A stretch of DNA of 46,346 bases. Source: Vulcanimicrobiota bacterium (GTDB lineage Bacteria; Vulcanimicrobiota; Vulcanimicrobiia; Vulcanimicrobiales; Vulcanimicrobiaceae). The position numbers and the translations under genes are program-made. The stretch lies in assembly GCA_027452165.1 (NCBI GenBank), contig DAIDGX010000020.1, positions 1-46,346 of the forward strand, in the 5' to 3' direction. The notes beneath the pieces are model-generated. The model ran no database searches and was not told the origin of the DNA. It worked only from the letters and a program-made list of their open reading frames with translations. This document shows, piece after piece, positions 7,253-46,346 of this stretch (position 1 is its first letter; every line of letters begins with the position of its first letter).

Positions 7253-8371
7253 AACGTCGCGGTCTTTTTGCGAGTAGATGTTGAGCAAGACGCCGACGGC
7301 GGCAAAGTTCGTCAAAATGGCCGATCCGCCGTAGGACATGAAGGGAAGCGGAATGCCGGTGATCGGCATGATGCCGATCGTCATGCCGATGTTGACGAGC
7401 AGGTGAAAGAAGAGCATCGCGACGATGCCGCTCGCAAGCAGAAACGCGAAGCGATCGCGGGCCGCGAGCATCGTTTGTATGCCGCCGAAGAGCACGAGGC
7501 CGTAGAGCGCGACGAGCGCGACCGAACCGAAGAAACCGAACTCCTCGGCGAGCACCGTAAAGATGAAGTCGCGCGAATGCTCCGGCACGAAATTCAGCTG
7601 CGTTTGCGTACCGTGATGCAGCCCGCGCCCGAGCCACTCACCGTTGCCGACCGCGATCTTCGACTGGTTCAAATTGTAGCCGGCGCCCTGCGGATCGGCC
7701 TTCGGATTCAAGAAGACGAGCAGGCGCGCTTTCTGGAAGGGCTTCAAGATCGCGTTCGTGCCGACGGCGAGCGCGCCCGCGGTCAGTACGCCCATCGCGT
7801 AGATCGCGAAATCACCGAGCTTCGGCAGCCCGAAGAACAACTGCGCGCTCAGGATCGCGAGCACCACGAGCGAGGTGCCGAGGTCGGGCTGTTTCAAAAT
7901 CAGGAGTGCCGGAATCGCGACGGCAACGAGCGGCTTCCATAAGTCTTGAATGCGGTCGTAGGTGCTGCGGCAGAGCACCCATGCAATCGAGATCGCGAGC
8001 ACCAGCTTCGCGGGTTCCGAGGGTTGGAACGTGCCGAGCGGTCCGAGCGAGATCCAACGCTGCGCGCCGAGCGCCGAATGCCCGCCGCGCAAGATGAAGA
8101 GCAGCAGCAGCAGATTGATGACGTACAACCCGGGCGCCCACCGCCGGTAATTCTGGTAATCGATGAACGAGACGCCCACCATCAGCGGCACGCCGAGGAA
8201 CACGTAGAGCAGTTGCTTGCGCGCTTCACCGCTCGCGTCGGGGCTGTGCAGGTCGGCGGATTGGATGCAGACGATGCCGATGAGCGAAATCAGGACGCAC
8301 GACACCGCGAGCGTCCAGTTGAAGTTGCGCACGTATCGGCGCGCTTCGATCCCGAGAGTCAATACCGCCAT
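7238..8371 (-). CDS. rodA: RodA, SEDS peptidoglycan glycosyltransferase
   Basis: A 377-aa polytopic membrane protein of the shape, elongation, division and sporulation family, which polymerises lipid II in the elongation machinery. About ten hydrophobic segments are visible, with the family signatures GAQRWISLGPLGTFQPSEPAK, LKQPDLGTSLV (with the conserved Asp), HSRDFIFTVLAEEFGF and the C-terminal PLPFMSYGGSA. Length and order match RodA rather than FtsW. It is the last gene of the min operon, 53 nt after minE, linking division-site placement with cell elongation. Confidence 0.95.
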   Translation of the reverse strand: MAVLTLGIEARRYVRNFNWTLAVSCVLISLIGIVCIQSADLHSPDASGEARKQLLYVFLGVPLMVGVSFIDYQNYRRWAPGLYVINLLLLLFILRGGHSALGAQRWISLGPLGTFQPSEPAKLVLAISIAWVLCRSTYDRIQDLWKPLVAVAIPALLILKQPDLGTSLVVLAILSAQLFFGLPKLGDFAIYAMGVLTAGALAVGTNAILKPFQKARLLVFLNPKADPQGAGYNLNQSKIAVGNGEWLGRGLHHGTQTQLNFVPEHSRDFIFTVLAEEFGFFGSVALVALYGLVLFGGIQTMLAARDRFAFLLASGIVAMLFFHLLVNIGMTIGIMPITGIPLPFMSYGGSAILTNFAAVGVLLNIYSQKDRDVLGNA

Positions 8372-8424
8372 CGTTTCTGCTTACGACCCGCGCACGGCAA
8401 CCGTACAGTTGAAGGGCAGCTGCC

Positions 8425-8865
8425 TCAGTGGGCCGTTGCGGGCTTGCCCGACGGCTGCTTCCTGCGGCGCCGCCGTTTCGGCGGCTCGGCGCTCGCGTTC
8501 GCGCTTGCCGATACACCGCTCGGCGACGCCGTGCTCGGCGATGCGGTCGCCTCGGCCTGCGCGCGTTCGTTCGTCACCGGCGGCTTCTCGCCGTCGTCGC
8601 CGCCGCCGGTCGGGCGGTTCACCGCGATGATCGGAATGCTCGCCATCATCGCGAGCGCGCGATCCTCGCGTTCGAAGTCGATCTCGACTTTTTCGCGATC
8701 GACTTCGACGTAGCGCGAGATCACGTCGACGAGATCGCGCTTCATGTTCTCGATGATCTCGGGCGCGAGCGCGAGATGGTCGGTCATGAGGACGAGACGC
8801 AGACGCTCCTTCGCCGTCGAGCTCGAGTTCTGCGTGCCGAGCATCTTTTTGAGCCACTCGATCAT
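8425..8865 (-). CDS. minE: MinE, topological specificity factor, with long C-terminal extension
   Basis: A 146-aa MinE. The first 85-90 residues show the family layout: an N-terminal amphipathic membrane-targeting helix (MIEWLKKMLG), a MinD-contacting segment (AKERLRLVLMTDHLAL) and a dimerisation region (VDVISRYVEVDREKVEIDFERE). After VNRP there is a non-conserved tail of about 55 residues: Gly/Asp, then Ala/Ser/Thr-rich, ending in a PPKRRRRRK basic patch. Typical MinE is about 85-90 residues, so the tail is extra and probably disordered. Its start overlaps the minD stop (ATGA). Confidence 0.93.
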   Translation of the reverse strand: MIEWLKKMLGTQNSSSTAKERLRLVLMTDHLALAPEIIENMKRDLVDVISRYVEVDREKVEIDFEREDRALAMMASIPIIAVNRPTGGGDDGEKPPVTNERAQAEATASPSTASPSGVSASANASAEPPKRRRRRKQPSGKPATAH

Positions 8866-9710
8866 GCGCGGCGCCCTCCAAAGAACGAGCCGAGCTTATC
8901 GAGGAACGAGTCCTTGGTTTCGACCGTCGGCGCCGGCACGTCTTCGCCCGCGATGCGCGCGGCGATCGCGTGGTAGGCGCTCGCGGTCGCGCCTTCGTCG
9001 CGCAGCGCGAGCGGCTCGCCCTTGTTCGTCGTCACGATGATCTCGGGTTCGTCCGCGATCACGCCGAGCAGCGGCAACCGCAGGATCGCGTTCACGTCCT
9101 CGACCGAGAGCATCTTGCCTTTCTTCACGAGCGCGGGGCGCAGACGATTGATGATGAGCTGCGGTTTGAACTTGTTGCCGAGCAGGCCGACGACGCGATC
9201 GACGTCGCGCACCGCGGAGACTTCGGGCGTGCAGACGACGATCGCCTCGTCGGCGCCGACCACCGCGTTCTTGAAGCCCATCTCGATACCGGCCGGGCAA
9301 TCGATCAGCACGTAGTCGAACTTCTCGCGCAGGCGCTGCACGAGCTCGCGCATCTTCTCGGTGTCGACCTCGTCTTTTTCACGCGTCTGCGCCGCGGCGA
9401 GCAGCATGAGCGTTCCGGTATGCTTGTCGGGCACGAGCGCTTCGTCAAGCGTGACGCTCTCGTCGAGGACGTCGAGCACGTGGTACTTCACGCGGCTCTC
9501 GAGTCCGAGCACGATGTCGAGGTTGCGCAAGCCGACGTCGGCGTCGACGAGCGCAACCCGGGCGCCGCGCTTCGCGAGCGCCGTGCCGAGATTCGCCGTC
9601 GTCGTCGTTTTGCCGACGCCGCCCTTGCCCGAGGTGACGACGATCGCGCGGCCGAGCTTCACCGGCGCCGCGGCCGGTGCTTCGTCGTGCATCGGTTGGA
9701 GTTCGTGCAT
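8862..9710 (-). CDS. minD: MinD (copy B, adjacent to minE)
   Basis: A 282-aa deviant-Walker ParA/MinD ATPase: SGKGGVGKTT near residues 27-36, VDADVGLRNLD, and DCPAGIEMGF in the switch region. The C-terminus ends in a short amphipathic helix (FLDKLGSFFGG), the membrane-targeting sequence of MinD. An N-terminal extension of about 20 residues (MHELQPMHDEAPAAAP) precedes the ATPase core; an internal ATG at residue 7 is an alternative start. It lies 4 nt downstream of a second minD and overlaps minE, so it is probably the copy coupled to MinE. Confidence 0.93.
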   Translation of the reverse strand: MHELQPMHDEAPAAAPVKLGRAIVVTSGKGGVGKTTTTANLGTALAKRGARVALVDADVGLRNLDIVLGLESRVKYHVLDVLDESVTLDEALVPDKHTGTLMLLAAAQTREKDEVDTEKMRELVQRLREKFDYVLIDCPAGIEMGFKNAVVGADEAIVVCTPEVSAVRDVDRVVGLLGNKFKPQLIINRLRPALVKKGKMLSVEDVNAILRLPLLGVIADEPEIIVTTNKGEPLALRDEGATASAYHAIAARIAGEDVPAPTVETKDSFLDKLGSFFGGRRA

Positions 9711-9714
9711 GGAG

Positions 9715-10506
9715 TTACCCCGCTTTCAGAGCGCCGAAGAGACGCCCGAACAAGCCTTGCGAATCGAAATTAGTGAACGGAACGACCTCGCCTTCCAAGC
9801 GGCGCGCGATCTTGTCGTAGATCACGCGCAGCTTCGCCGACTCGTCGAGCACGACCGGTTCGCCGCGGTTGGTCGTATCGATGATCTCTTCGTCGTCGGG
9901 CACGATGCCGAGCAGCTCGACCGCGAGGATCTCGCAGACGTCGTCGACCGAGAGCATGTCGCCGGACTTCACCATCGCCGGGCGCAGACGGTTGACGATC
10001 AGACGGATCGGAATCTGCTTGTCGTTGAGCTTGCCGACCACGCGATCGGCGTCGCGGATCGCGCTGACCTCGGGGGTCGTCACCACGATGGCCTCTTTCG
10101 CGCCCGCGATCGCGTTGCGGAAGCCCGCTTCGATGCCCGCCGGGCAATCGATCAGCACGTAGTCCGCGAGCTCCGCCGCCTGCTCGACGATCGCCGCGAA
10201 CTGCTCCTGCGTGATCGCGTCTTTGTCGCGCGTCTGCGCGGCCGGCAGAATCGAGAGCGATTCGAAGCGTTTGTCCTTGATCAGCGCTTGGCGCAGCTGG
10301 CAGCGGCCCTCGGCGACTTCGACCACGTCGAAGACGATGCGCTTCTCGAGCCCGAGCACGAGATCGAGGTTGCGCAGGCCGATATCGGCGTCGACGAGGA
10401 TCACGCGCGCGCCGCGTTTTGCGAGCGCCGCACCGAGATTCGCGGTCGTCGTCGTCTTGCCGACCCCGCCTTTGCCCGACGTGATGACGATGCGTCGTCC
10501 GCTCAC
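9715..10506 (-). CDS. minD: MinD (copy A, adjacent to minC)
   Basis: A 263-aa MinD paralogue with the same motifs as copy B: SGKGGVGKTT at the N-terminus, VDADIGLRNLD, DCPAGIEAGF, TTPEVSAIRDADRV, and a C-terminal membrane helix (QGLFGRLFGALKAG). It has no N-terminal extension. The two copies differ clearly in the middle (IVFDVVEVAEGRC against VKYHVLDVLDESV), so this is a diverged duplication rather than an assembly repeat. Its start overlaps the minC stop by 4 nt. Copy A next to MinC and copy B next to MinE suggests either heterodimers or partner-specific roles; that is inference. Confidence 0.93.
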   Translation of the reverse strand: MSGRRIVITSGKGGVGKTTTTANLGAALAKRGARVILVDADIGLRNLDLVLGLEKRIVFDVVEVAEGRCQLRQALIKDKRFESLSILPAAQTRDKDAITQEQFAAIVEQAAELADYVLIDCPAGIEAGFRNAIAGAKEAIVVTTPEVSAIRDADRVVGKLNDKQIPIRLIVNRLRPAMVKSGDMLSVDDVCEILAVELLGIVPDDEEIIDTTNRGEPVVLDESAKLRVIYDKIARRLEGEVVPFTNFDSQGLFGRLFGALKAG

Positions 10507-31700: not shown

Positions 31701-32066
31701 ATGAAAAAAATCGCACTTCTCGCCTTTGCGCTCTTCATCGTGCCGTGCGCTGCGCGGGCCAGCGAACACACGGTGATCAAGCTGGTCAACGATACGGGCC
31801 ACTGGATACGCGTCTATTCGCGCGTAAATGGAATCGGGAGCGAGAGCCACGTCTTTGTGGTCAAACCCATGGACCTGGTGACTATTCGCGAGACGGAACC
31901 CTTCGGAAAATTCTCGACGTCCGTTAGCGTCGCAGTGTTGCGCAACCGGACCGACGTGCAGCACATCTGTACCACGCTCAAGACGTTCCACAACACGACC
32001 GGCGGCTCACCGATCCGCCAGGACGTTCACTACAGCAACGGCACCTGCTCCATCGACTCCCCCTGA
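31701..32066 (+). CDS. Small secreted protein
   Basis: A 121-aa protein with a clear signal peptide (MKKIALLAFALFIVPCAARA, cleavage after about residue 20). The mature part of about 100 residues is beta-rich with two cysteines (in HICTTL and GTCSI), and resembles in general pattern the other secreted protein at 32247-32723 (an ISNKSN/VNDTGH-type opening, then short strands). The function is not recognised. The gene's 3' end lies 3 nt from a transposase remnant. Confidence 0.65.
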   Translation: MKKIALLAFALFIVPCAARASEHTVIKLVNDTGHWIRVYSRVNGIGSESHVFVVKPMDLVTIRETEPFGKFSTSVSVAVLRNRTDVQHICTTLKTFHNTTGGSPIRQDVHYSNGTCSIDSP

Positions 32067-32069
32067 TCG

Positions 32070-32240
32070 TTAAACGCCTGGTCTCGGTCCCGTCATGAGG
32101 CCAGCGAAAACTGTGGGAGTTTGGTAGCCGAGCGCGGAGTTCGCGTGCGTCGTGTTGTAGCTGTGCATCCACGTGATTCCGTGGGCCTGCGCCTCGGCGA
32201 GCGAGTGAAACCAGTCGACGGCCAAGCCGGTTCGGCTGAA
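32070..32240 (-). pseudogene. C-terminal remnant of an IS3-type transposase (rve integrase)
   Basis: 56 sense codons before the stop read, on the minus strand, FSRTGLAVDWFHSLAEAQ, then HGITWMHSYNT, then HANSALGYQTPTVFAGLM. The pattern WF-SLAEAQ...W...YN...(H/N)S(S/A)LGY-TP-FA is the conserved end of IS3-family DDE integrases. There is no upstream coding sequence in frame (the next gene begins at 32247), so only the tail remains. It marks past IS activity at the edge of the accessory region. Confidence 0.8.
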
Positions 32241-32246
32241 CCTATC

Positions 32247-32723
32247 TTATGGACATCCCTGGTCGACGCGAACGACCTTCATTAACCCGTTACGGCTGCC
32301 GCCATAGGGGACGAGGACCGTTTCGACCTGCGCAAATCCAAACGGCTTTGCGCCATGGGTGCAGTGCCGAAGGGTGATGCGAATGGGAGAAATCGTTCCG
32401 TGCCCAGCGAATATCCGAGTTCCGGAAACCTTCTTATCGTCGACCCAGTGTGGGGTAATCATGTACTCGGAATTTGCCGCGTAACAACACCCATTCGCGT
32501 TAACGCTGGTATGCGGCTGGATGACGACTCTTCCGATTTGGGAGCCTTTGCCACCAAGGAAAACGTGGTCGATGGTTACTTCGACCTCAAAGTTCGACTT
32601 GTTGGAAATTGAGATAAACCCATTGGTATAATTGATGGCCGCCGCGGAAATCGGCAGCGCGAGCAAGGTCGCTAAAATCAAGAGCGTCGTCAGGGCTCGC
32701 ATCATCTTTGGTCGCCTCCGCAA
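32247..32723 (-). CDS. Small secreted protein with signal peptide
   Basis: A 158-aa protein. The signal peptide is about residues 8-30 (MRALTTLLILATLLALPISAAA). The mature part is beta-rich (GFISISNKSNFEVEVTI, RVVIQPHTSVNANG) with four cysteines (CC in the middle, C in RHCTHG, and GCP at the end). The pattern suggests a small extracellular beta-sandwich stabilised by disulfides. An in-frame start 21 nt earlier exists; the second Met (MMRALTT) may be the true start. No family is recognised. Confidence 0.65.
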   Translation of the reverse strand: MRRRPKMMRALTTLLILATLLALPISAAAINYTNGFISISNKSNFEVEVTIDHVFLGGKGSQIGRVVIQPHTSVNANGCCYAANSEYMITPHWVDDKKVSGTRIFAGHGTISPIRITLRHCTHGAKPFGFAQVETVLVPYGGSRNGLMKVVRVDQGCP

Positions 32724-33302
32724 GCAGCGTCGTCGAGGTCCACCCGTTCAAGCAAGGGTTTGCCTATTTCCCTGTAACCCCTTGCTCTACGTGCCGGTCG
32801 AGCATTCGATGGGGAAGCCGGGCGCTTACAGCGCTTTGACTCGCGCGAAGGCTTTGCGAAGATACTCCCGCGGTAGCGCCAACGGGAATCGAATTCTCGA
32901 AGTGGGGTCCCGGCAGGTCCCGGCCGTTACCAAAAACCTCGATTTTCAGGGGATTCCGCACTTTTCACTCCCGGCCGATCCCGCGCGATTCCGGCCATTT
33001 CCGGCCAGTCTGTTAGACGATTGTTAGACGAGATCGTCCCTGGTCGCGCAGTTCTCTGCGTCCCTACGTACATCCGGGCCTTCGGTCTGGGCTATCCGCT
33101 CGAGGGTCTCGATCTAGTTCTGCAACAGCAAAGCTCTCTGGCGCCAAGCACAGCGAAGCGAGCGTAGCATAGGTGGCGGTAACCCATCACGCCGCGAGGA
33201 CAGGCTGAGTGTTTCGTTCGTTTTGGCAGTCGAGAACTGGCGAATGCGGCCAGGGGTCGGAGCCAAGAATTTCACAATTCGTCTACCGAGAGCGGCGATA
33301 GG
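32724..33302. other. Non-coding transition zone at the accessory-island edge
   Basis: 579 bp without a supportable gene. It contains short degenerate repeats of TTCCGGCCA (about 32989-33008), a tandem 11-bp repeat (33011-33032), and on the minus strand a tRNA T-loop-like ATTCGATTCCCG (about 32887-32905). There is also a short open minus-strand stretch of 29 codons (about 33035-33121, ETLERIAQTEGPDVRRDAEN) preceded by in-frame codons with one stop, suggestive of a decayed recombinase or other coding tail. The base composition changes across this stretch. Confidence 0.45.
33011..33032. repeat. Tandem 11-bp direct repeat
   Basis: TGTTAGACGAT followed directly by TGTTAGACGAG. Ten of eleven bases are identical. 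It sits just before the sequence turns into the defence-gene region, and may be a recombinase or regulator site. Confidence 0.6.
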
Positions 33303-35477
33303 TCACTCAGAGGCTTTCTCAGCAAATACTGCGATCGTTGCGTCACTCGGCACCACAACGACCGGCCACCAAAATGGAAGACCGCTCCAGCCCTTCTCTT
33401 TCTCGCCCCGCTGTTTCAGCAGCATCAGAGTTGGAACTTCCGAAGTACTCTTGGCCGCGTCAGTTTGCTGCTTCGTATCAGGAGAGTCGTTTAATCGACC
33501 ACCTTCGCGTTCGCGGCTGACGTTCCGCGCCTCGGACTGGCCTGCCAAAAGAATCCACACCTTGCCCCTGACAGCTTCATTTGGCGTCGCCGTCGACAGG
33601 TGCTGAAGTATGGCTACGAAGCTTTCGCGATCATCATCTCCCTCTTCATATTTGAAATTTCGCTGTGCGAGTCGGAGGAGCTCACATGCAATCGGCAAGT
33701 CGACGAGAGTTGGAGTATTATCGGTAATCCTTAGATTGGCGATTTTCTTATCGAGAGTTTCCAGATCTTTCCGGCCCGCAGTCGGCGATACGATCCGAAA
33801 CCCAGTGGGAACAATGCGATGCCCAGGGCGCACTGATTTTATGTCTGAAAAAAGAATCTTATTCGGGTTGCAAGCGATGATATTTCGTTTCGAGTCTTGC
33901 ATGATGAAATAGACGTCCGGAGAAGCGCCGTCAGCAGCCTCCAGCGCGTATCGAAGAGCAGCGTCAAATTCATGAATCGTCTTCATGAGTTTGTAAATTC
34001 GATCAGGCGCATAGAGGCGCGTTACTGGGAGATCGGCAAGATCGCGAGCGCCGTACATGCGGGAATGCTGCAAGACGGTATCTTGCTGGGCTTTTTGCGG
34101 ATTTCGGCCATAATAAAATCCGATGAGATTACTAATCGTAATGCCGCGATCGAGGATCTGTCCCCCGATAAATATATTGAAGGGGTTTTGCAATTCCAAC
34201 TGACCATTTTCATCGAGAATCGACTCGATCTCGGCGTCCGAATTTACCACTGTCACCATAAGGTGTTCGTTTATGAGAGCGAGCTTCACCGCAGCACAAA
34301 CCTCGTCCAGGCCAGGATAAGCGGCCCGAGATAGCTTTATCGATCGCTCCAGGTCTAAATACGAAACCGCGATCAACTCGTCAAGCTGCTTCGCGTCGCT
34401 TTTTGCCAGGCCGGTCAGCTGATTTCTGATCTCGATGACAACGCGTTCCTGCCAATTGTGCGAGGCTCGTGCTTGCTCTGTGTGAAATAGAAACGCATAT
34501 TTTCTCGGAATAGAGTCCTTGGTGCTGTCTTGAAGTCTACGGATGCAACCTCCAACAATGAGGTTCATGATGGCTAACGTTACGACGCGCGAATTCGGGG
34601 ACGTTAGTACGTCCGAGAGCTTTAGGCGGCGTCCGTCTTCCTTTTTTAACGCGTCGCGCTCGGAAACTGGAACGTCATGATAGAAATAGTACGCCGCCGA
34701 GGTTTCATCATCTGATTTTTCGAAATAGTAATCACCACCAACATATGCGTCGTGTGACTTCAAAATTTCCGTGAACGCCGGCCGACGCGGACGAAAGAGC
34801 AGCTCGCCAGCCCGGTAAACGTCCTCTTCCGGCTGCAGATACAATGAATAGGGAGTCGCAGTAACCTGTAGGTATGCCGCCTTAGCAAGCCCCGAGCGGA
34901 AGGCGTCAATCTTCTTCGAGATTTTGCCAACTTCTTTTCCGCCACCGGGTATGCGACGAAAGCTAACAGAGGCCAAATCTGCTTCGTCGTCTACAAGCAG
35001 CCACTTCCGATCCGAAAGCATGGTATACGTCTCGGAAAATGCAAGTTGAAGGCGTTTAAGGTTGTCATCTTCCTTCTTTACTACAAAGATCAGTTTCTGA
35101 TCCAGCACGTAGCTTGTGAGATTTGCTCGGAGCTCCATTATATCGAAGAATTGGACGATGTCCCGATGCTTGAGGTCGCCATAGTCATTCGCCATTCTGC
35201 GCATCGTCTGGCGCACAAGCGACTTTGTCCCTTTGGTAAAGATAATTGCACCGTCGAAGCCGTGATCAAATGCCTCCGCGATGATGCCAAGGAAAGCCCG
35301 CGTCTTTCCCGATTGAATACGCCCGAACAACACACCCGGCCGATCCGTAGTCGTGTCACGCTCGACGAGCTGGGCCGCAGTTCGGCGAACAACATGCTGT
35401 AATTCGTCTGAGTCGCCACCGCGTGCGAGGGAAACGCGCTCGTAAAGCCCGGCGTGGGGAGCTGCTGCGGTATCCAT
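33303..35477 (-). CDS. Z1-domain ATPase (superfamily II-like, defence-associated)
   Basis: A 724-aa protein matching the Z1 family. Walker A is GRIQSGKT (residues 52-59), the DEAD-like Walker B is LLVDDEAD (161-167), motif III is TATPY (206-210), and helicase-like C-terminal motifs follow (GGQILDRGITISNL and QHSRMYGARD). Z1 proteins are known from restriction-like loci with MORC/GHKL ATPases, PD-(D/E)XK nucleases, Vsr and 5mC methyltransferases. Here the neighbours upstream on the same strand are Vsr and a 5mC methyltransferase, but no GHKL ATPase or separate nuclease gene is present. The ATG start has no clear ribosome site. A 170-bp leader with competing inverted repeats separates it from Vsr. 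Confidence 0.85.
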   Translation of the reverse strand: MDTAAAPHAGLYERVSLARGGDSDELQHVVRRTAAQLVERDTTTDRPGVLFGRIQSGKTRAFLGIIAEAFDHGFDGAIIFTKGTKSLVRQTMRRMANDYGDLKHRDIVQFFDIMELRANLTSYVLDQKLIFVVKKEDDNLKRLQLAFSETYTMLSDRKWLLVDDEADLASVSFRRIPGGGKEVGKISKKIDAFRSGLAKAAYLQVTATPYSLYLQPEEDVYRAGELLFRPRRPAFTEILKSHDAYVGGDYYFEKSDDETSAAYYFYHDVPVSERDALKKEDGRRLKLSDVLTSPNSRVVTLAIMNLIVGGCIRRLQDSTKDSIPRKYAFLFHTEQARASHNWQERVVIEIRNQLTGLAKSDAKQLDELIAVSYLDLERSIKLSRAAYPGLDEVCAAVKLALINEHLMVTVVNSDAEIESILDENGQLELQNPFNIFIGGQILDRGITISNLIGFYYGRNPQKAQQDTVLQHSRMYGARDLADLPVTRLYAPDRIYKLMKTIHEFDAALRYALEAADGASPDVYFIMQDSKRNIIACNPNKILFSDIKSVRPGHRIVPTGFRIVSPTAGRKDLETLDKKIANLRITDNTPTLVDLPIACELLRLAQRNFKYEEGDDDRESFVAILQHLSTATPNEAVRGKVWILLAGQSEARNVSREREGGRLNDSPDTKQQTDAAKSTSEVPTLMLLKQRGEKEKGWSGLPFWWPVVVVPSDATIAVFAEKASE

Positions 35478-35500
35478 GGTGTTGTCTGATTGCGTCGAGG

Positions 35501-35553
35501 CGATTCATTCCTGCCGACGCGACGGAGATGCGCTAAAGAATGAATCGCGTCGG
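35501..35553. promoter_or_regulatory. Overlapping inverted repeats in the leader of the Z1 gene
   Basis: Arms CGATTCATTC (35501-35510) and GAATGAATCG (35538-35547) are a perfect 10-bp inverted repeat. Arms CCGACGCGA (35514-35522) and TCGCGTCGG (35545-35553) are a perfect 9-bp inverted repeat that shares three bases with the first. The two stems are interleaved, so in RNA they would compete or form a pseudoknot-like fold. The element lies 24 bp upstream of the Z1 ATG, inside the vsr-Z1 gap. Confidence 0.6.
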
Positions 35554-35647
35554 CGCTCCGGTTGGGTCCAACGGACTACGTGCTCTCGCGAAGCGCTGAT
35601 CCCCGTGACCAGCGGGCAACATTTCGATCAGAGGTCGAGGTTAGTCC

Positions 35648-36103
35648 TCACGCATCGTTGAGGCTACGGTTAGCATAAAGAGGCTTGGGTGCCACGCTTG
35701 TAACGGCACGGAACAAGGCCTCTAGGCGATTCTTGTTGGCGACCTCGCACTCCCATATGGAGAAAACCGTCCAGCCGAGTTGTTCGAGTTGAGCCCTGTT
35801 CCTGGCATCACGCTCTTTATTTGCGGCTACCTTAGCGGACCAATATCCTTGGTTAGATTTAACTTCGCGCGTTCCATCGACACACATCGTGCAGCCGTGC
35901 CAAAAGCAGCCGTGGACGAAAACGCAAGCGCGTCGCTTAACAAAAACCAGATCGGGTTTTCCAGGGAGAGTTGTAAGATGGAGTCGATATCGCAGCCCTT
36001 TCTGATGCAAGTAACGGCGCACCGAAATCTCCGGCTCCGTGTCCGCTGCGCGAATACGCGACATGTTCCAACTGCGCCTAGATGCCGTGGGTTTATCAGC
36101 CAT
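35648..36103 (-). CDS. vsr: Vsr-type DNA mismatch endonuclease
   Basis: A 151-aa very-short-patch-repair nickase, which cuts next to T:G mismatches left by 5mC deamination. The family signatures are all present: RSWNMSRIRAADTEPE at the N-terminus, the catalytic Asp in LPGKPDLVF, FVHGCFWHGC with the active-site histidines, KERDARN, and LGWTVFSIWEC. Relative to E. coli Vsr, one zinc-site His is replaced by Cys (FWHGCTMC), which could give an all-cysteine site. It lies 40 nt downstream of the 5mC methyltransferase, the classical Dcm/Vsr pairing. Here it is part of a defence unit and may act as repair factor or as the nuclease. Confidence 0.93.
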   Translation of the reverse strand: MADKPTASRRSWNMSRIRAADTEPEISVRRYLHQKGLRYRLHLTTLPGKPDLVFVKRRACVFVHGCFWHGCTMCVDGTREVKSNQGYWSAKVAANKERDARNRAQLEQLGWTVFSIWECEVANKNRLEALFRAVTSVAPKPLYANRSLNDA

Positions 36104-36143
36104 TGGAATACAGAGTCTGCTATTCTCTGCCCGAATCAGTCCG

Positions 36144-37175
36144 TTATGAGCCCACCTTCAAGGCTAGGCTCGCTGGTGCTTTCGTTTGCGCAAGCTGCCG
36201 CCTTAGGGACTCAGCTACTACCCGTGCGAGTGGCGGAGGTACGGCTTCGCTTATCTGAGTTATTTGCGATGAGAGTGTACCTTGCAGCGCGTAGCTATCG
36301 GGAAAGCCCTGCAGGCGCATAGCCTCAAAGACGCTAAGCCGCCGATGGCAATCTGGATGAATGTGGACCTCTCTGTTACCGTATGATACCGTGAGGCTCG
36401 GCTTCTCCCAGCTAAGCACCTTAAAACTTCTATTGCTTGATCTGCCAGAAACAAGCGCGCCTTTTCTTGCGAACTTCTGCGATTTCGGTGTCATACACCA
36501 GTGATTCGGATGAAACGGGATGACGTCGCCGGGCGAGTAATCGCTGAAGTACGTCGGTTCTGGAAGACCTCCGATAGCGAAGCGAACAGACAGCGCCTTC
36601 GCGTTCCTCCTCGGGTTCGGCGGCCGCCATGACAGGTTAGGGTACAATAGTCTGTTTATGCCCACGATAAATAGGCGTTGCCGGGTTTGCGGAACACCAA
36701 AGTCCTTCGCATCGAGGACGCAACAGGTGATATTGAACCCGGCGCGCGTTAGGGCTGCCTTCAAAAGCGCAAAACGGTGCGAGTATTTCTTGCTCAGGAG
36801 CCCAGGGACGTTTTCAAAGACGAAAAACGCGACTCGATTTGAACGATTCAAGTCTGCGATCAAGCGAGCATACCGAAACGGTAAACGGTGTCTTGGATCC
36901 TTTCCATACTGCGAAGAATTAGCGATCGAGAAGCTTTGGCACGGGGGGCCTCCTATAATTCCGAAGGGCGTGCCCATCGCGTTCTCAACATCAGCGGCCT
37001 TCAGGTTTCGAATGTCAGATATCCGCGCAACCGAGGATGCGAGGTTGCAGTTATAGCTCGCCACGGCATCTGGCCGAATATCGAATGCCGCGCCGATGTC
37101 GAAGCCGGCCTGTTCGAACCCGAGGTCCATTCCTCCAGCGCCGCAAAACAGGCTGAGCAGCCTTGTCAAGATCAA
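36144..37175 (-). CDS. DNA (cytosine-5)-methyltransferase
   Basis: A 343-aa C5-cytosine methyltransferase. Motif I is LLSLFCGAGGMDLGF, motif IV GGPPCQSFS with the catalytic Cys, motif VI FENVPG, motif VIII QTRQRLF, and motif X ISEAVPPPLA (usually GNAVPP). The target recognition region between motifs VIII and IX is about 90-100 residues and does not reveal the sequence recognised. The TTG start at 37175 has GGAGAG upstream; a second TTG two codons on is possible. In Druantia type II a cytosine methylase (DruM) accompanies DruF, DruG and DruE, and this one is divergent from such a set. Confidence 0.93.
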   Translation of the reverse strand: MILTRLLSLFCGAGGMDLGFEQAGFDIGAAFDIRPDAVASYNCNLASSVARISDIRNLKAADVENAMGTPFGIIGGPPCQSFSIANSSQYGKDPRHRLPFRYARLIADLNRSNRVAFFVFENVPGLLSKKYSHRFALLKAALTRAGFNITCCVLDAKDFGVPQTRQRLFIVGINRLLYPNLSWRPPNPRRNAKALSVRFAIGGLPEPTYFSDYSPGDVIPFHPNHWCMTPKSQKFARKGALVSGRSSNRSFKVLSWEKPSLTVSYGNREVHIHPDCHRRLSVFEAMRLQGFPDSYALQGTLSSQITQISEAVPPPLARVVAESLRRQLAQTKAPASLALKVGS

Positions 37176-37200
37176 CTCTCTCCGCCACGTAATAGGTCGT

Positions 37201-37231
37201 TACCGCCTGCGTTTCCGCGAAGACGGCGGTA
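37201..37231. promoter_or_regulatory. Hairpin in the shared divergent promoter region of the defence island
   Basis: TACCGCC (37201-37207) pairs with GGCGGTA (37225-37231), with four more inner pairs possible across a small bulge. The 180-bp region between the methyltransferase start (37175) and the 689-aa gene start (37356) must hold promoters for both directions. A second hairpin GGGCC-CAAA-GGCCC lies at about 37308-37321. It may be an operator or an RNA leader; the regulator is unknown. Confidence 0.4.
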
Positions 37232-37355
37232 GCTCCGGCCTGCGCTCGGATTAACGCGCCGATTTCTGACGCCCAATGGAGCCTCTTGCCGGCGCGGCCT
37301 AACGAATGGGCCCAAAGGCCCGGCGGGGCGCAAGGGGCGGTAGCCGAACAGAAGA

Positions 37356-39425
37356 ATGGTGCCGCCGGACGGACCGCCTGAATCCTATCTTCAGTGGAAT
37401 GATGCAATCGGATCGAAGATTTTTCGGCCCGAAATGGCAGGGCGCGCCACCTTCCTCTACGTGGACGAACGCCTAATTGAATCGATTGGTGGCTCCGGAT
37501 GCATTCCCACGTTTGTCCAGGCAACACTAGAGGGACCACCGTGGGCAAAACCCGGCGCAGGGCTATGTCAGAAAGCTCTTCAAACGCTGGCTGGCTGGCG
37601 GGGTCGGGGTCTTGCACTTCCTCCCTACCTGGCATTCCTGGCGCTATTCGTGTTGGCTGTTGGAGTGGCCGGTGACTTCCCTGCACACGCTTACTATAAG
37701 AGGCTCTGGAAACTTCTTGGTCGCGAAGACGCGGAAGGCACCCCGCCATCCTTCGATCGGATGCTGACTTTATGGGACGACCTTGAAGTCTGGTCCAACC
37801 GCGATAGAGGTGGTGACCTGGGAGTCTTTAGCGTGAGATTCGCCGGCAATTGGATTCACGTAGGGTTGCCGAAGGCACAGGCCATTCTCACCGAGCATGA
37901 ACGGCGAGATCTAACAAAAATCTTTGTAGCAGCTACGCTCGACCCGACTGATACGCCGAACGATCTGGAGCTCGCTGCATCAATTCGACGACACGGGGCT
38001 GGCATTCTACGTCATTCGACTCTTGAGCTACTCAAAGACCCCGACGCCGATCCCGACTTTTATTCAATTCTTCTGGATATCATTAACACTGAACTTGAGG
38101 AGTGGGACGGTGAGTGGTTCGATGCGGGTGATGAAAAGACCCAATCGGTCGCTCGCCTTTGCATGCGTGTTGACAATGTCTCAAAGCGCGCGATCGTTCG
38201 CCTGCGTGTAGCATCGAGCGCGGACTTCCCGCAGGATGGTCTGACGCTGACAGACGACGATGATAATCACACGGGAACCACTTATGAATGCGAGGAGCAT
38301 CTGCCCGGTTGGTCATCGCCACTTCGATCTCGCGAATCCGAGGAACTTAACGGCGCAGCTCTAGATTGGCGCCGCACACGAGGCTTTGTAGATTTGCGAA
38401 CTCACTGGCGTGTTCGTTTCCCTGCGCGCAGAGTAAGAATTTTTGTAAGTGGCCTTCCTTTACAGCTCCCTGGCCTCGTTGAAGTCTGGCGACTTCCTCG
38501 CGATGTACCGTTTACGGTCGCGGCACATGATGATGTGGTTCCGCATCTACGCGCCTGGAACGATAGCGGCGAAGTAGCGTTGGCCGAGGTTCCAATCATT
38601 GAAGGGTTGCCTAGCCGCTGGAGGTTGTATGCGTCCCCCGGAGCCGCGAGCGATCTTCACATACGCGATCACGTCCCCGAGCTTGCGCTCCCATCTGCTG
38701 CGCGCATTAAGCTAGTTGGCGGCATCAAGAGTTCCGAGGGGAATTCGTATTTCGATTTTGCGCGTCCGATGGTGAATGTGGTTGGCGCCGGATCGAACGA
38801 CCAGGTTTGGATCGGGTCCGCCAAGCTTGAGCGCGGCATTGATACCGATACACTACTCCTACCAAAGCGTCTCCCGCTAGGTGAGCCGATAACGGCTGAA
38901 GTGCGTTCCGAAGCGAGTGTTAGACGCCGCTTAACTTTTTTTCTCGAAGATGACCCCGATTGGCGCCAGGCGCAGCCGAGTTGCTTTATGAATGGACTCG
39001 GAACCCAACTATTAACAAGCATCGCTGAGCCTGACGCCGGTGAAGGCCCGTGGATTGCCGGCGCGTTATTGACAGGCGCAGTTTGCGCGGATACGTTTCC
39101 TGTCTTCCCGCAGATCCCCGAACATGGTCACTATTTTATCGTGGGTCGCCGGGTAGGTGAGGTAGTGGCAAATCCGCATTTGCCGATTGACCTCGACTGG
39201 CCCGCGATTTGGATTCTCGATGCGAAGGAAGGCATCGTGCATTTCTGCGGCCCTGGGATATCCGCGTCTGAACCGGTCGCCGAAGCAACCGGTGATCGAC
39301 AGGCCGTTAGGCTGTGGCGAGAGGTAGTGTGGAACCGGCGGAAACGCTTTGCTCCGCTGCAGAATCTGAAGTTGAGCGCGCTGTGGAAGCGCTACCTAAA
39401 GGTGGCCAGCGTTGCGCGCGGCTGA
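37356..39425 (+). CDS. Unrecognised defence protein, DruF-position (689 aa)
   Basis: A 689-aa soluble protein, moderately acidic, with no nucleotide-binding or nuclease motif that I recognise. The N-terminal 150 residues contain FLYVDERLIESIGGS, then a mainly hydrophobic helical segment (LAFLALFVLAVGVAGDF, near residue 90-105), which may be buried rather than membrane. The centre (about 255-560) is beta-rich with repeated strand patterns. The C-terminus is helical with basic patches (WNRRKRFAPLQNLKL, ALWKRYLK). By size and order before a 326-aa and a 1919-aa DUF1998 helicase, it occupies the place of DruF in Druantia type II. Assignment is by synteny only. Confidence 0.6.
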   Translation: MVPPDGPPESYLQWNDAIGSKIFRPEMAGRATFLYVDERLIESIGGSGCIPTFVQATLEGPPWAKPGAGLCQKALQTLAGWRGRGLALPPYLAFLALFVLAVGVAGDFPAHAYYKRLWKLLGREDAEGTPPSFDRMLTLWDDLEVWSNRDRGGDLGVFSVRFAGNWIHVGLPKAQAILTEHERRDLTKIFVAATLDPTDTPNDLELAASIRRHGAGILRHSTLELLKDPDADPDFYSILLDIINTELEEWDGEWFDAGDEKTQSVARLCMRVDNVSKRAIVRLRVASSADFPQDGLTLTDDDDNHTGTTYECEEHLPGWSSPLRSRESEELNGAALDWRRTRGFVDLRTHWRVRFPARRVRIFVSGLPLQLPGLVEVWRLPRDVPFTVAAHDDVVPHLRAWNDSGEVALAEVPIIEGLPSRWRLYASPGAASDLHIRDHVPELALPSAARIKLVGGIKSSEGNSYFDFARPMVNVVGAGSNDQVWIGSAKLERGIDTDTLLLPKRLPLGEPITAEVRSEASVRRRLTFFLEDDPDWRQAQPSCFMNGLGTQLLTSIAEPDAGEGPWIAGALLTGAVCADTFPVFPQIPEHGHYFIVGRRVGEVVANPHLPIDLDWPAIWILDAKEGIVHFCGPGISASEPVAEATGDRQAVRLWREVVWNRRKRFAPLQNLKLSALWKRYLKVASVARG

Positions 39426-40392
39426 CGAGCTACTGGCAGTGCTGTCTGCGAGGCGCAAGCTCTCATGGCATGCCTGGCGGCGCGCCTTTGACGTGTTGCA
39501 TACGAACGCGGAAAAAGATGGTACAGCCATCGATGAGCCGATAACGTTCCTGCGCTACCGAACGCTTCGTATTTTTCAGGAATTGGCGCATTGCGATTTT
39601 AGCGAAGAACTTTCATCAAGGGTTTGCTATGCTGCGCCAAGTTTGGTTGTCTCGATTCCCACCGCTGGAATGCCTCGTGCACTGCTATGCGGTTCCCGGA
39701 ATACTCGCGCGGCTAGCATCCTGAGAGAAGCACGTATGCATTTCCGGGCTGATGCCTGGCCGATTGCGCAAAAACAACCATACTGTGGCGGCTACGCGCC
39801 ATCCGCGCTGCTTTTTGAGGCTACCGAAATAAGTGTGCTATCGCGGATTGCGGAGCGATGCGCTGTTCCGTTTATCCCACAGCCGCCAGCGTGGTCGCTG
39901 CTATCCTGTGCAAAAGGGTTAGAAGATTACGAAGCGGCCCTATCCTGGAAAAAAGATCAGGATCCGGCATGGCCCAGGAAAGATTTCTCCGAGACGTCGC
40001 TCGTGTATGGCCAAGTGCCAGGAAGCAGCGAGCAATTCAGGCTTAGTACCTACTCCGATCCACGAACGACCCGCACTATTTATCTTATGCGGCGCCCTGA
40101 AGGACTTGCGGCAGTCGATCGTCATTGGGGACGATGGCTCTACCTCGCCGACGTCGGCAGGAACGTTTTGCGCTATGATGGCAAGCGTCAACTTCTTGCC
40201 GTTCCTACAAGTGTTCCATTGCCCGCCACTCTTGCCCGCAGCCTAACGCTGCTTTCAGGCCTCGCTCCTTCCCGTGTAACGCAAGGCGACGCTGAACGCA
40301 ATCTCGATATTTACTGTAGCGTGCCTCGCAAATGTGCAGAAGTTCTAGCGGGAAAACTTCGGCAAGTATTGGTCGATTCTGAACTCGTGTGA
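39412..40392 (+). CDS. Unrecognised defence protein, DruG-position (326 aa)
   Basis: A 326-aa protein starting at TTG 39412 with AAAGGTGG 6 nt upstream, overlapping the previous stop by 14 nt. No catalytic motif is recognised. A helical N-terminus (LLAVLSARRKLSWHAWRRAF) leads into an alpha/beta body with YLMRRPEGLAAVDRHWGRWL, which ends in a helical tail. The context, between an approximately 690-aa unknown and a DUF1998 helicase, fits the DruG slot of Druantia type II. The next gene begins 12 nt downstream. Its pattern does not suggest a nuclease. Confidence 0.6.
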   Translation: MRAADELLAVLSARRKLSWHAWRRAFDVLHTNAEKDGTAIDEPITFLRYRTLRIFQELAHCDFSEELSSRVCYAAPSLVVSIPTAGMPRALLCGSRNTRAASILREARMHFRADAWPIAQKQPYCGGYAPSALLFEATEISVLSRIAERCAVPFIPQPPAWSLLSCAKGLEDYEAALSWKKDQDPAWPRKDFSETSLVYGQVPGSSEQFRLSTYSDPRTTRTIYLMRRPEGLAAVDRHWGRWLYLADVGRNVLRYDGKRQLLAVPTSVPLPATLARSLTLLSGLAPSRVTQGDAERNLDIYCSVPRKCAEVLAGKLRQVLVDSELV

Positions 40393-40404
40393 TGGAGGGT
40401 GGTC

Positions 40405-43400
40405 GTGAACGATCCTATCGGTGCGTTCGAAACTATTCGCAGGAACTTTCTCCTATACATTAGGACCGCCTTCGGTACACAATACCCTGGCGTCGAAAAT
40501 GAGCGCCTGCGCTTGCTGGAAGCACCTGGCGTCGTAGCGCAAGAGCCTTGGATAGAATTGCTTGCGCGATATCAGTCTTCCGGAAAGACGATCAATACGA
40601 TCACAGTGGAAGACGTTCCGGGACTTACTGCTCGCATATTATCGGACTTTCAACAAATGTGTGCGTGCGGGCTGATAGGCGATTTCAAGCTTCATCGCCA
40701 CCAGCTAGAGATGCTCGCGCGTTCCCTATCCGGCCACAATGCAGTCGTAACTGCCGGTACCGGATCCGGGAAGACAGAATCGTTCTTACTCCCGATCTTC
40801 GCGCAGCTTGCAAAGGAGTCGCAGGGATGGTCCGCGCCCAACGCTATGCTACCGCACGCGGACGACTGGTGGCGAAGCGATTCATGGCGGGCTCAATGTG
40901 TCGGATCGAACGGGCGGCTCACTAGGTCCTTACGCGTACCGCAGCGTGGGCACGAAACGCGTCCGGCGGCGGTCCGGGCACTAATCTTGTATCCCATGAA
41001 CGCCCTAGTAGAAGATCAAATGAGCCGTTTGAGGCGAGCTTTGGATTCGGATGATGGTCGGGGATGGATGGATGAACGCCGCAGCGGCAACAAAATCTAT
41101 ATCGGGAGGTACAACGGCGCCACACCGGTGCCCGGACACGAGCTCCGAGCTACTGGCGCGCCAGACCGGGGTCGTATCGACGACTTAGCTCAAAAGCTCG
41201 CGGAGATGGAGATTGCGGCCAATGAGGCCCGCGAGCACGGACGGCAGACCGGTGACGAGGACGTCCAATACTTCTTTCCACGTCTGGACGGCGCGGAAAT
41301 GCGGTGCCGGTGGGACATGCAAGACGCCCCACCCGACATCCTTATAACAAACTATAGCATGCTGAGTATCATGCTCATGCGCGATTCTGACAGTGCAATC
41401 TTCGACAAGACGCGAGAGTGGCTCCGCGAAGACTCCAGCATCTTCCATCTGGTAATAGATGAGTTGCATCTTTATCGCGGCACGGCCGGAACCGAGGTCT
41501 CTTATCTCCTTCGGCTATTACTGGATCGCCTGGGCCTCTCCCCGACAAGTCCAAAGCTTAGGATATTAGCGTCGAGTGCCTCACTTGAGAGGGACGACGA
41601 GAGCGTTCGTTACCTCTCTGAATTCTTTGGCGTCCCGTGGTCGACCGACGACATTATCCCCGGGTACAACGAAGCCGTACCGCGGACGCCCAGCGAACCC
41701 CTCAAGCCGTATAAGTCGCTACAAACCCTCGCGCGCATCGGCGACGATCGTGCCAGCGACCTCGTGGAGAATCTCGACTCTGTGGCCGACGATCTCGCTC
41801 TGCAGCCGGTGCAGGGAACCGGAGTCGACCGGCTGCGCGCCGCGATTCGCAATCGTGCTTCTGACCTTACGGCACGCTTTGTATCAGCTTGCAGCGACGG
41901 CGGCGAAACAAGAGCAGTCCCCCTGACAGCCGTTAGCGACGCACTCTTCGGCGCGGCTGTACCGAGCGAAGAGAAGAGGCTCGCGACGCGAGGTCTGTTG
42001 ATAGCGCGCAGCCTTTATGAGTCTGGCGATAACCCAGCCGAGCAGCTACCTTCGTTTCGATTTCATATGTTCTTCCGGAATGTCGAAGGCCTTTGGGCGT
42101 GCGCGGCGCCGAATTGTTGCGTTGATCCACAAGACGCCGACACCGACCGCCCTTGCGGGCGCCTGAGCATCGACCCGTCGATCATGTGTTCTCAATATCA
42201 TCGGATTCTTGAGCTCTTGTATTGCGAGCAATGCGGCACTCTCTTGTTCGGCGGGAGCCGCCTCGATTTACCCGACGGAACCTGGGAACTCCTGAGAACG
42301 GACGCAGACATCGAGGGGATACCTGACAAACAAGCTGCCCGCTTTGTCGAGCGACGTACGTACGATCAGTATGCGGTGTTCTGGCCGCGCGGCAGTGCGC
42401 CACTCAACTCTGAGGCACGCACGTGGCGCCAACCGTCGTACGCTGCGCAAGGGCCCATATCTGCGAACTGGACGCCCGCGGCACTTAATGTCGTCACCGC
42501 CAAAGTGGAACTTGGCGATGGAGGCGCCCTATTCCCCAATGGCCCGTGGATTCGCGGATACTTGTTCCTATTGCCGACAGCCTCTGTTGACGATGCTCGG
42601 GTTACGCGAGCGTTGCCGTCCGTCTGCCCACGCTGCGCGTCGGACTATACCCGGCGGAGGCATAAGCTTTCACCGATACGCGGATTTCGTACGGGCTTCT
42701 CAAAAGTGACGCAGTTACTCTCAAAGGAGCTGTTTTATTTTTTGGGTCGCGATAATCGGAAATTGGTCCTCTTCTCCGATAGCCGCGAGGAGGCGGCCAA
42801 ACTATCTAACGGCATAGAGCGATCTCACTATAGCGATCTGGTGCGCGAGACCCTTTATGATGAGCTAGAGCACGAATGCACGGCTCGCCTGGATCTGCTG
42901 GAGGATCTGTCAAACACGGGCCATGCTGTTCGCGCGTCGTCGATCCGTTTGGCGCAACGAAGCCCCGAGCTTGTAGCGGAGCTATCCGCACTTGCCAAAG
43001 ATGCGGCAAGGTTGATAAGGGACGACTACGACACAGACGTGCGTGAGATGCTTCAAGCCAAAAAGGAGAAGGCTGACGCCGCTATTGCGACGTTGCGCGA
43101 AACGGCAAGATCACGCACGGTGCCTGTGCGGTTGCTCTTCGAAGGTCGCTATGATGCGCGCGAACCGGGACTGCTAATCGAACGGCTAAAACGACTTGGC
43201 CTCAATCCGGCCGGCAATGATCTGCTATATCAAGAAATGCGGTTCGATGGTCAGTACCGGCGGTGGACCGAACTTTTTGATTTTAGCCGCGAGGACGCAG
43301 GGTGGCGTGAGAATCTGTCCGCTGAAGGGATCGAAGCTCGTGAATTGCTTCGGCGAAAGGTTGCCGGAGAGATTGCGCAAGTATTCTTCAGCCGTTTGTA

Positions 43401-46164
43401 TTTTGGTTTTGAATCGGCTGGACTAGGATACGCACGGTGCGGCGTTCCTGAGGCGCGCGTAGCCGAAATCGCTGCTGCGATCGGCGTTACGGCAGAACGA
43501 CTCGAAAGCGTGTGTGACGCGCTCATTCGAATTCTCGGGGACCTGTATCGCTATCCCAGTGAGCAACAGGACTTTCCGCCTCCGGTAGAGTGGCCTGATT
43601 GGCAGGCTGCTCGCGCAAAAGTTCGTGATTTCATCCGCACGTGTGCTGATTGGCTAGGAATATCCGAGAGAGATCTGAGGGAGGCTGTCTGGGACGTTGT
43701 TGTTCGGGAGGGCGGCCACTCCGGGCTGATCATCCAGACGCGCAAACTTGCGGTGCGGATCGCCGAGCCGTTGGACCCTGTTTGGACTTGCGGTAATTGT
43801 CGGCGAGACCATTTGCATTATCTCGGTGTATGCACAAATTGTCTTTCGGGTTTGAACGAATTCCCTAGCTCCAATTGCGCCGCCCTTCACGATAGAAACT
43901 ATTACGCAAAGGAAGCCGTAGAGCTTCGCGAGCCTTTGCGGTTGCATTGCGAGGAGATGACCGCTCAAACAAGCGACCAAGCTGAAAGGCAACGCCTCTT
44001 TCGCGATATTGTTGTGAATCTCGATGGGCAACGAGATCGTCTAGTCCCCGAGGTTGACGAGATCGATGTACTCAGCGTTACTACCACAATGGAAGTCGGC
44101 GTAGACATAGGAAACCTGGAGGCGGTTGTGCTGGCGAATATGCCGCCAATGCGCTTCAACTACCAGCAGCGTGCTGGGCGAGCTGGTAGGCGCGGACAGC
44201 CTTTCGCTAACGTTCTTACACTTTGCCGCGGCCGAAGCCATGACGACTTTTATTACCGCAATCCACGCAGAATCACCGGTGACAAGCCGCCTGTGCCCTT
44301 TCTATCTCTTGCCCGACAAGAAATAGCGCAGCGTTTGATGGCGAAAGAGGTGCTTCGGCGAGCGTTTCGCGCAGCGGGTGTGACCTGGAGCGAAGCACTG
44401 CAGCCCCCCGATTCCCACGGGGAGCTTGGCCTTTCGTCTAATTGGATCGCAGATGCATCGCGTCGTGATGCGGTTAAGAACTGGCTCGCTACAAGTGACG
44501 ACGTGCGACACGTGGCCAACGTACTAACAAGCGGTAATACGCAAATCCAGCGAGAGTCGCTCGAAGATTACGCCAGGACTCGGCTCTATGATGCCATCGA
44601 GCGCGCGGCAAGCAACAGCGAAATCGCAGCCGATGGGCTAGCCGAGAGGCTCGCGGAAGCTGCAGTTCTTCCGATGTTCGGCATGCCATCTCGAGTCCGA
44701 TTGTTATATCACGGCTTGCGCGGTGAACAGGCCTTTACTGTGGATCGCGATCTCGACCTAGCAATAACCGAATTCGCGCCGGGCTCTCAAAAAACGAAAG
44801 ATAAGCGAACATACCGCGCGATCGGCTTTACGGCTCCGCTACTTTATCGCGGAGCGACGGGATTCGTTCCATCTGCACCCAATCCACTTGGAGGGAGCCG
44901 CTGGATGGCCCGGTGCGAGAGATGCCATGAAACCAGGACCAGCGATGCTCAACCCCAGGATCTAATGTGCCCGAACTGCGGTGCGCTGCTGGATGAGCCT
45001 CATGGTTTCCGTGTATTTCGAATCGTCGTTCCTTTGGGTTTTCGAACCAACCTCGGTAGAGGCTTCGATGCGCCTGATGAGGACGAGATATTGATTGCCG
45101 GAGCCAGCGCAATCGCCGAGTCTGATGCATCGCAAGCACAACATGTTGGTTCGACCAACTCTGCAATCGCGCTATCTAGGGCCGGCCGCGTCTACCGCAT
45201 TAACGATCGTCATGGTTTATTATTCACCGGACAGTTAGGTTCCGCACGGCGCCCAAACGGTCGCGCACTCGACAATCAATGGATCGACGTGCGGTATCAA
45301 AATCAACCTGACGAAGTGCAATTCTCGCCGCTTGCTGGAACCGTTCCCGAGGCGGTTGCGCTGGCCTCCCCCAAGACGACTGATGTCCTTAGGATCAGGC
45401 CTTGGTCAGTTCCGAATGGAATCGTGCTTGATCCATCGTTGCCCCACGTTGGCGTGAAAGCCGCGTTCTATTCCGCGGCGTTCATTGTGCGCTCGATTGC
45501 AGCAGAGAGACTTGATGTCGATCCCGACGAAATTGAAATAAGCAACGTCAGACAAGTCCGCGACGATAGCGGAGTTCGTATGGGCGAGGTGTTGCTCGGC
45601 GACTACTTGCCGAACGGAGCAGGATTCATGAACTGGTGCTTCGACCACTGGCTGGGCGTGCTTGATTCCGCAACTGACGTGAACCCGCGGTCAGATTCCT
45701 TCATTGGGTCGCTGCTCTCAGATCACCATAGGCGTACCTGCGATTCGGCTGGGTATGATTGTTTGCGGCAGTACCGCAACATGGCGTATCACAGCCTCCT
45801 TGATTGGCGCCTCGGATTGGCATTACTACGTCTTCTAAAGGACAGCAGCTACAGGTGTGGACTCGACGGCACCTTTAGCACTCCCGAACTGGAGGATTGG
45901 ATCGAGACGGCGATGAGGCTCCGCGACTCTTTTTGCGGATCATTCGGCTGTACCCCGCAGCAATACGGTGCTCTCCCTGGTTTCCGCGCCGGAGGCAACG
46001 ATGTCTTGATCGCGCATCCGCTTTGGGATACTCGCGCACCGGATGGCATCCTCGCTGAAGCTGCGGCATACTGCGAGGCCGATCCCTACTATGTCGATAC
46101 CTTTAACCTGCTAAGGCGAGAGAGTTGGACGTATCAGGACCTCGGTCGCGCCTTCGTTTCGTAG
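40405..46164 (+). CDS. Large DEAD/DEAH-like helicase with zinc clusters and DUF1998-like C-terminus (DruE-like)
   Basis: A 1919-aa protein. A helicase N-domain shows Walker [12 protein letters not shown] (Lys123), [12 protein letters not shown] (motif Ia-like) and DELH (352-355). A long insertion holds a zinc-knuckle region (about 560-620, WACAAPNC...CEQCG). The helicase C-domain carries [17 protein letters not shown] and [11 protein letters not shown] (about 1253-1263). Further zinc ribbons are near 1127 (WTCGNC...CTNC) and 1505 (CERC...CPNC). The last 250 residues show the DUF1998 pattern ([12 protein letters not shown] at about 1730, then [21 protein letters not shown]). The size and layout match DruE, the hallmark of Druantia. 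The start is the GTG at 40405, 5 nt after GGAGGG; an earlier GTG (40399) overlaps that site. Confidence 0.85.
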
Positions 46165-46346
46165 ATCCTCTGGCGCTTCCCTCGCGTTTCGGACCAATTG
46201 GGCCGACGCTTGTACCGTCGCTTTCCTCCTGTAGCCTTCGCGCTGTTTGGGGAAGTCAGAGAGCTGACGCCCTAATACCATCGAGCCCAAAGCACTTCGT
46301 CGGGACCGTCGCCCATCGACTTCTAGAGCGTGCGCTAACGTCGCAT
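46165..46346. other. Right-end intergenic sequence
   Basis: 182 bp after the large helicase stop with no supportable gene. A 14-codon minus-strand open stretch (46272-46316, ending VLWARWY) has a stop just upstream and is probably a remnant or chance. No terminator with a T-tract is evident. The island may continue beyond the window. Confidence 0.4.

Follow-up and report, generated by a model that had tools for sequence, protein, structure and literature searches.

We interpret the locus at 33303-46164 of the window (the whole 46,346-nucleotide stretch of DNA that was analysed) as an anti-phage defence locus of the Druantia family, with an F-L-E set closest to type IV, that possesses its own C5-cytosine methyltransferase (MTase) and Vsr endonuclease, and to which the gene for a Z1 ATPase has been added; we put the probability of this reading at about 0.6. 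The locus consists of six intact open reading frames in a divergent pair of operons, with the positions and arrangement that an earlier note on this DNA had given:

33303..35477, minus strand: Z1-domain DEAD-type ATPase, 724 aa (PF10593, E=6e-18; PADLOC Helicase_II, E=1e-56)
35648..36103, minus strand: Vsr mismatch endonuclease, 151 aa (TIGR00632, 136 bits; cut-off 97.85)
36144..37175, minus strand: C5-cytosine DNA methyltransferase, DruM-like, 343 aa, TTG start (PF00145, 192 bits)
37176..37355, no strand: divergent intergenic region between the two operons, from the sequence
37356..39425, plus strand: DruF, 689 aa (DruF4, 472 bits; DruF2, 430 bits)
39412..40392, plus strand: DruL, 326 aa, overlapping the end of druF (DruL4, 205 bits)
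40399..46164, plus strand: DruE, YprA-family helicase, 1921 aa, GTG start (DruE2, 1836 bits; DruE4, 1797 bits)

Both arms probably lie within one acquired island that reaches the end of the contig, since the drop in G+C content (53-57% from approximately 32 kb onwards, 32000-46346, versus 62-70% elsewhere in the contig) spans the two of them. The intergenic region contains no repeat or promoter matches above chance; tRNA and Rfam scans of the window returned no matches, nor did scans of viral contigs with DruF and Z1.

The Druantia arm

PADLOC profiles identify the products of the plus-strand arm as DruF, DruL and DruE. The earlier note had read a methyltransferase followed by genes in F-G-E order, which resembles Druantia type II, and this assignment is ruled out at the middle gene: the 326-aa protein matches DruL4, and none of the locus proteins matches DruG in a set of profiles that gives 415 bits for DruG2 in our positive control, the true type II locus L051 of Agrobacterium pusense. 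Because of the DruL4 match and the lack of a DruG match we assign the arm, as judged by profiles, to the F-L-E set that PADLOC terms type IV, apart from the presence of a DruM-like MTase, type IV being defined as without DruM (PMC8565338).

Recognition of the large helicase as DruE was borne out, the protein being 1921 aa long from its GTG start rather than the 1919 aa first given. It retains the motifs GTGSGKT, DELH and QRAGR, and a relative with a solved structure (9wae) is matched with 789 bits. The earlier note had called it DUF1998-like; in the Pfam scan the DUF1998 model itself was not reached. In the DruE tree the window falls within the F-L-E clade, adjoining G604 (an F-L-E-MTase locus), with type II as the sister clade. 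Homology of the DruE C-terminus to Vsr has been proposed for Druantia I and II from structure predictions (PMC12458937); a profile comparison carried out here gave no signal. The structure of DruL, predicted without an alignment, reached a pLDDT of 34, too low to be of use.

Residue 1785 of DruE is Gly (codon GGG, 45751-45753, within CDSAGYDC), at a position of the C-terminal CDSxCYxC cluster where all 27 relatives having that position possess Cys. Among 140 otherwise invariant columns the window deviates at two, of which this is one, and GGG is at least two changes away from a Cys codon. By position and pattern the cluster is probably the DUF1998 zinc cluster, and this copy of DruE may be impaired or may tolerate Gly1785. 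Loss of protection has been reported for the C1516A mutant of DruE in Druantia III (PMC13316683), at a residue that may or may not correspond to Gly1785. The substitution and the mutant phenotype would both fit a decayed, inactive remnant; the six frames are intact, however, and the ATPase, MTase and Vsr motifs have been kept, and we regard decay as very improbable.

Methyltransferase and Vsr in Druantia loci

The MTase retains the C5 motifs PCQ, ENV and QxRxR, and scores 257 bits against the DruM2 model, equal to its score against the general MTase_II model. The Vsr protein can be aligned with its E. coli counterpart (1cw0, E=2e-22) and retains PGKPD and HGCFWH. The MTases most similar to that of the window (46% identity) are those of G604 and of G1074, in which the MTase lies next to DruE; these are also the MTase-bearing loci with the DruE nearest to that of the window (51% and 48%). 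The distances of DruE and MTase correlate across 23 loci (Mantel r=0.49, p=0.0001), as do those of MTase and Vsr across 17 (Mantel r=0.62, p=0.0001), with the shared ancestry of the loci contributing to both correlations. Since the nearest MTases flank the nearest DruE relatives and the distances correlate, the enzyme is best read, from these comparisons, as a DruM-like component of the Druantia arm, and not, as had been suggested, as one MTase simply shared by two systems.

Other Druantia II/IV-like loci were gathered in three collections: tblastn searches of plasmids with DruF and DruE; a DruF search in the phylum of the window and in that of the Acidobacteria genome G150; and a DruE2 profile search that covered 395 genomes from the phylum of the Bacteroidales and 299 from that of Pullulanibacillus. 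The 31 loci thus surveyed besides the window, from several phyla, were scanned with profiles made from the window proteins and their relatives. Of these loci, 22 have a C5-MTase close by, 16 a standalone Vsr, three a GHKL gene and one a Z1; all eight Vsr proteins that were re-checked lay above the TIGR00632 cut-off. As a control, 20 evenly placed 20-kb stretches taken from four of these genomes were scanned, and gave no hit to MTase, Vsr or Z1. The background of Vsr in plasmids is 208 places in 7.3 Gb by tblastn, or approximately 0.07% per 26 kb, versus 10 of the 18 plasmid Druantia loci by profile; profiles are the more sensitive of the two methods. MTase and Vsr accompany Druantia far more often than expected by chance, and in the DruE tree this applies to the whole type II clade, with its nine members, and to most of the window's F-L-E clade.

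Two kinds of neighbouring gene in the survey deserve mention. In L031 (G026), an MTase-Vsr pair and, after it, a frameshifted gene related to an NgoMIV-type restriction nuclease (7263-9996) lie upstream of a divergent DruF-DruL-DruE set; this pair may belong to a restriction-modification (RM) cassette next door, and the locus is counted among the MTase-Vsr loci with that caveat. GHKL (HATPase_c_3) genes adjoin type II-clade Druantia sets at L045:16461-19925 and L052:3280-5220, one having a weak Shedu-type C-terminus and the other following a PD-(D/E)XK gene.

Vsr is present in 17 of the 23 loci with an MTase, the window included, and in none of the nine without (Fisher p = 0.0004; this was calculated with eight MTase-less loci and is thus slightly conservative, there being nine). 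Among the loci lacking an MTase, L042 and G769 are truncated at contig or record ends, as are, in part, L011 and G698; with five MTase-less loci, allowing for such cuts, p = 0.006. F-L-E sets with neither MTase nor Vsr occur in L010, L047, L050 and L053. Because Vsr never occurs in the absence of the MTase, and some F-L-E sets lack both, we infer that it most likely serves the MTase sites through very-short-patch repair of T:G mismatches rather than acting as the nuclease of the defence complex; it is probably a partner of the Druantia arm too. The same observations led us to reject, as the main reading, the idea that Vsr is the nicking, and only, nuclease of the system.

The Z1 ATPase and its relatives

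The Z1 protein retains the motifs GRIQSGKT (Walker A), DDEAD and DTVLQHSRMYG. Its predicted structure (pLDDT 62) resembles SF2 helicases, among them RIG-I and HsdR, with whole-chain TM-scores of only 0.2-0.3, and its 50 bits against MzaC (MZA) lie below the cut-off of 1500. The nearest relatives (42-53% identity) are mostly solitary genes, some of them with an N-terminal extension resembling a helix-turn-helix; they come from Acidobacteria, Nitrospiraceae and Pullulanibacillus, and also from the genus and family to which the window belongs.

Others have RM genes as neighbours. At L123:8776-17409 a Z1 of the same clade (43% identity) precedes a type III RM mod-res pair, with a gap of 10 bp between them. 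Two loci of the Nitrospirota group hold compact operons that are probably complete Z1-type RM modules: L124:9077-13786 has the order MTase, 286-aa protein, Z1 and Vsr, with a same-clade Z1, and L125:8446-13391 has MTase, a 285-aa protein, Vsr, a 158-aa protein and a more distant Z1. The 285/286-aa proteins possess a D...ELKG stretch that resembles, by eye, a PD-(D/E)XK site, and gave no convincing Pfam family match; a profile search found no counterparts of them in the window or in any surveyed Druantia locus. A hidden restriction endonuclease (RE) remnant among MTase, Vsr and Z1 was likewise sought, and none was found. Since the kin of Z1 sit with type III RM genes and with L124-type and L125-type operons, Z1 ATPases associate with a variety of RM-like modules, and the window's clade may serve as a plug-in to more than one type of RM system. 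A family of about 158 aa without a Pfam match lies directly upstream of Z1 at L012:8310-8789, L015:8298-8759 and L125:10449-10925, its hosts being Nostoc, Calothrix and a Nitrospirota-group genome.

The sole other Z1 among the 31 Druantia loci is that of the Hymenobacter cellulosilyticus plasmid NZ_CP095048 (L044), where Vsr, MTase, a GHKL ATPase and Z1 face DruF, DruL and DruE. Recurrence of Z1, Vsr and MTase beside DruE in unrelated genomes, as the earlier note had looked for, is seen in this repeated divergent layout but amounts to a single case; Z1 is thus present in two of 32 loci, the window included. With nearest kin that are solitary or sit in RM operons, it is the loose part of the locus. 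Because the two Z1s fall in different clades, they derive from independent acquisitions. The Druantia arm of the plasmid locus (L044:8856-18071) is split over several frames, and may be decaying or may contain sequencing errors.

Might Z1 be a passenger, that is, a solitary gene, perhaps a defence gene of its own, which shares the island and has no role in Druantia? The solitary state of its nearest relatives, its occurrence near just one of the other Druantia loci, and the gap of 170 bp with an inverted repeat that separates it from Vsr would all agree with this. The strand and the order MTase-Vsr-Z1, on the other hand, match those of RM operons (L125), and the Hymenobacter layout suggests that Z1 could be a true component; we consider a passenger unlikely. 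The inverted repeat in the gap, at 35492-35556 just upstream of the Z1 start, has 19-nt arms (89%) with an 11-bp perfect core, and the same segment holds an interleaved 10-bp perfect inverted repeat; an equal perfect arm arose in none of 500 shuffles. These repeats could form an operator or an RNA structure.

A composite machine, in which Z1 and Vsr would constitute an ATP-driven nicking arm working with the MTase and the Druantia complex, would have parallels in the MTase-RE-Z1-Vsr and MTase-RE-Vsr-Z1 operons that exist without Druantia and in the CglI N-protein (PMC4267653), and would be in keeping with two independent acquisitions of Z1 beside MTase-Vsr-Druantia. The nuclease partner of the Druantia-free operons is absent from the window, however, Vsr is nested in MTase-bearing loci and dispensable for F-L-E sets, and there are two cases only, so that we hold such an arm to be quite improbable. 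A fused Druantia-Z1 machine is no more than a possibility. That the Z1 ATPases, taken up on at least two occasions and from separate clades by a divergent MTase-Vsr operon opposite F-L-E, serve as a second DNA motor working with the Druantia complex in a combined machine appears doubtful to us.

Proposed mode of action and comparison with known systems

Druantia types II and IV are, to our knowledge, mechanistically unexplained. For an F-L-E system with its own MTase and Vsr and an added Z1 gene, the reading that we prefer, the following scheme may be proposed. The MTase, whose motifs are observed and suggest its activity, would mark host DNA at a fixed site. DruF and DruL, together with ATP-driven DruE, would form the attacking complex, moving along invading DNA that is probably unmarked or replicating, and by analogy with the YprA family and Druantia III would stop its replication. 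Vsr, in line with its co-occurrence with the MTase, would repair the T:G mismatches resulting from deamination of 5-methylcytosine at MTase sites. Z1 would most likely be an accessory motor or a newly arrived neighbour, resembling the ATPase subunit of CglI-like restriction with the usual nuclease partner absent. The YprA-family helicases provide the model for DruE as a translocating helicase (PMC12458937); in Druantia III, DruE has been described as a helicase-nuclease that targets replication intermediates, and phages are prevented from replicating their DNA (PMC13192584, PMC13316683).

Among known systems, Druantia type IV shares DruF, DruL and DruE in the same order and the absence of DruG; the window differs in its divergent C5-MTase, Vsr and Z1, and thus departs from the definition of type IV by absence of DruM. 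Type II (DruM-DruF-DruG-DruE) has a C5-MTase, DruF and DruE in common with the window and, in all nine sampled members, Vsr, and is its sister clade in the DruE tree, whereas the window has no DruG, a divergent MTase and an additional Z1. In the CglI and NgoAVII RM systems a DEAD-Z1 ATPase drives restriction with a nuclease partner (PMC4267653). The window resembles them in combining a C5-MTase with a DEAD-Z1 ATPase, but has Druantia genes, and its Z1 is only about 24% identical to that group; the PLD/B3 R-protein, present in L013 and L014, was not found in the locus beside Z1.

The MORC-type operons combine helicases having Z1-type motifs with Dcm, Vsr and an RE-fold nuclease (PMC2292703). 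With these and the paraMORC operons the window shares Dcm, Vsr and a Z1 with the DThhQXuRhFG-type motif, and differs in having neither GHKL nor RE-fold genes. The absence of a GHKL ATPase and of a PD-(D/E)XK partner, which the earlier note had remarked upon, was confirmed for the locus by profiles and Pfam: no GHKL gene was found with the profile that finds those of L044, L045 and L052, and no RE-fold nuclease with the profile of the L124/L125 proteins, other RE families being covered by the Pfam scan only. In L044, which repeats the divergent layout, one strand carries Vsr, MTase and Z1 and the opposite strand DruF, DruL and DruE; this locus is distinguished from the window by its GHKL ATPase, its broken Druantia arm and a Z1 of another clade.

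The suggestion of a composite Druantia and Z1-Vsr locus thus stands in that the locus is composite and a new Druantia variant, with the amendment that the MTase, and probably Vsr, partner the Druantia arm. Druantia, Z1 ATPases and MTase-Vsr pairs are each already known. New, as far as open papers show, are the regular pairing of MTase and Vsr across Druantia II/IV-like loci and the occurrence, in two instances, of F-L-E together with MTase, Vsr and Z1 in a divergent arm; the open literature searched, which did not include the original Druantia paper, contained no statement on an association of Vsr with Druantia. The regular companionship of an MTase and a standalone Vsr with Druantia II/IV in several phyla points to a modification-guarded, restriction-like mode of these systems. 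The link to Z1, if functional, would join the MORC/CglI world of restriction with that of defence by YprA helicases.
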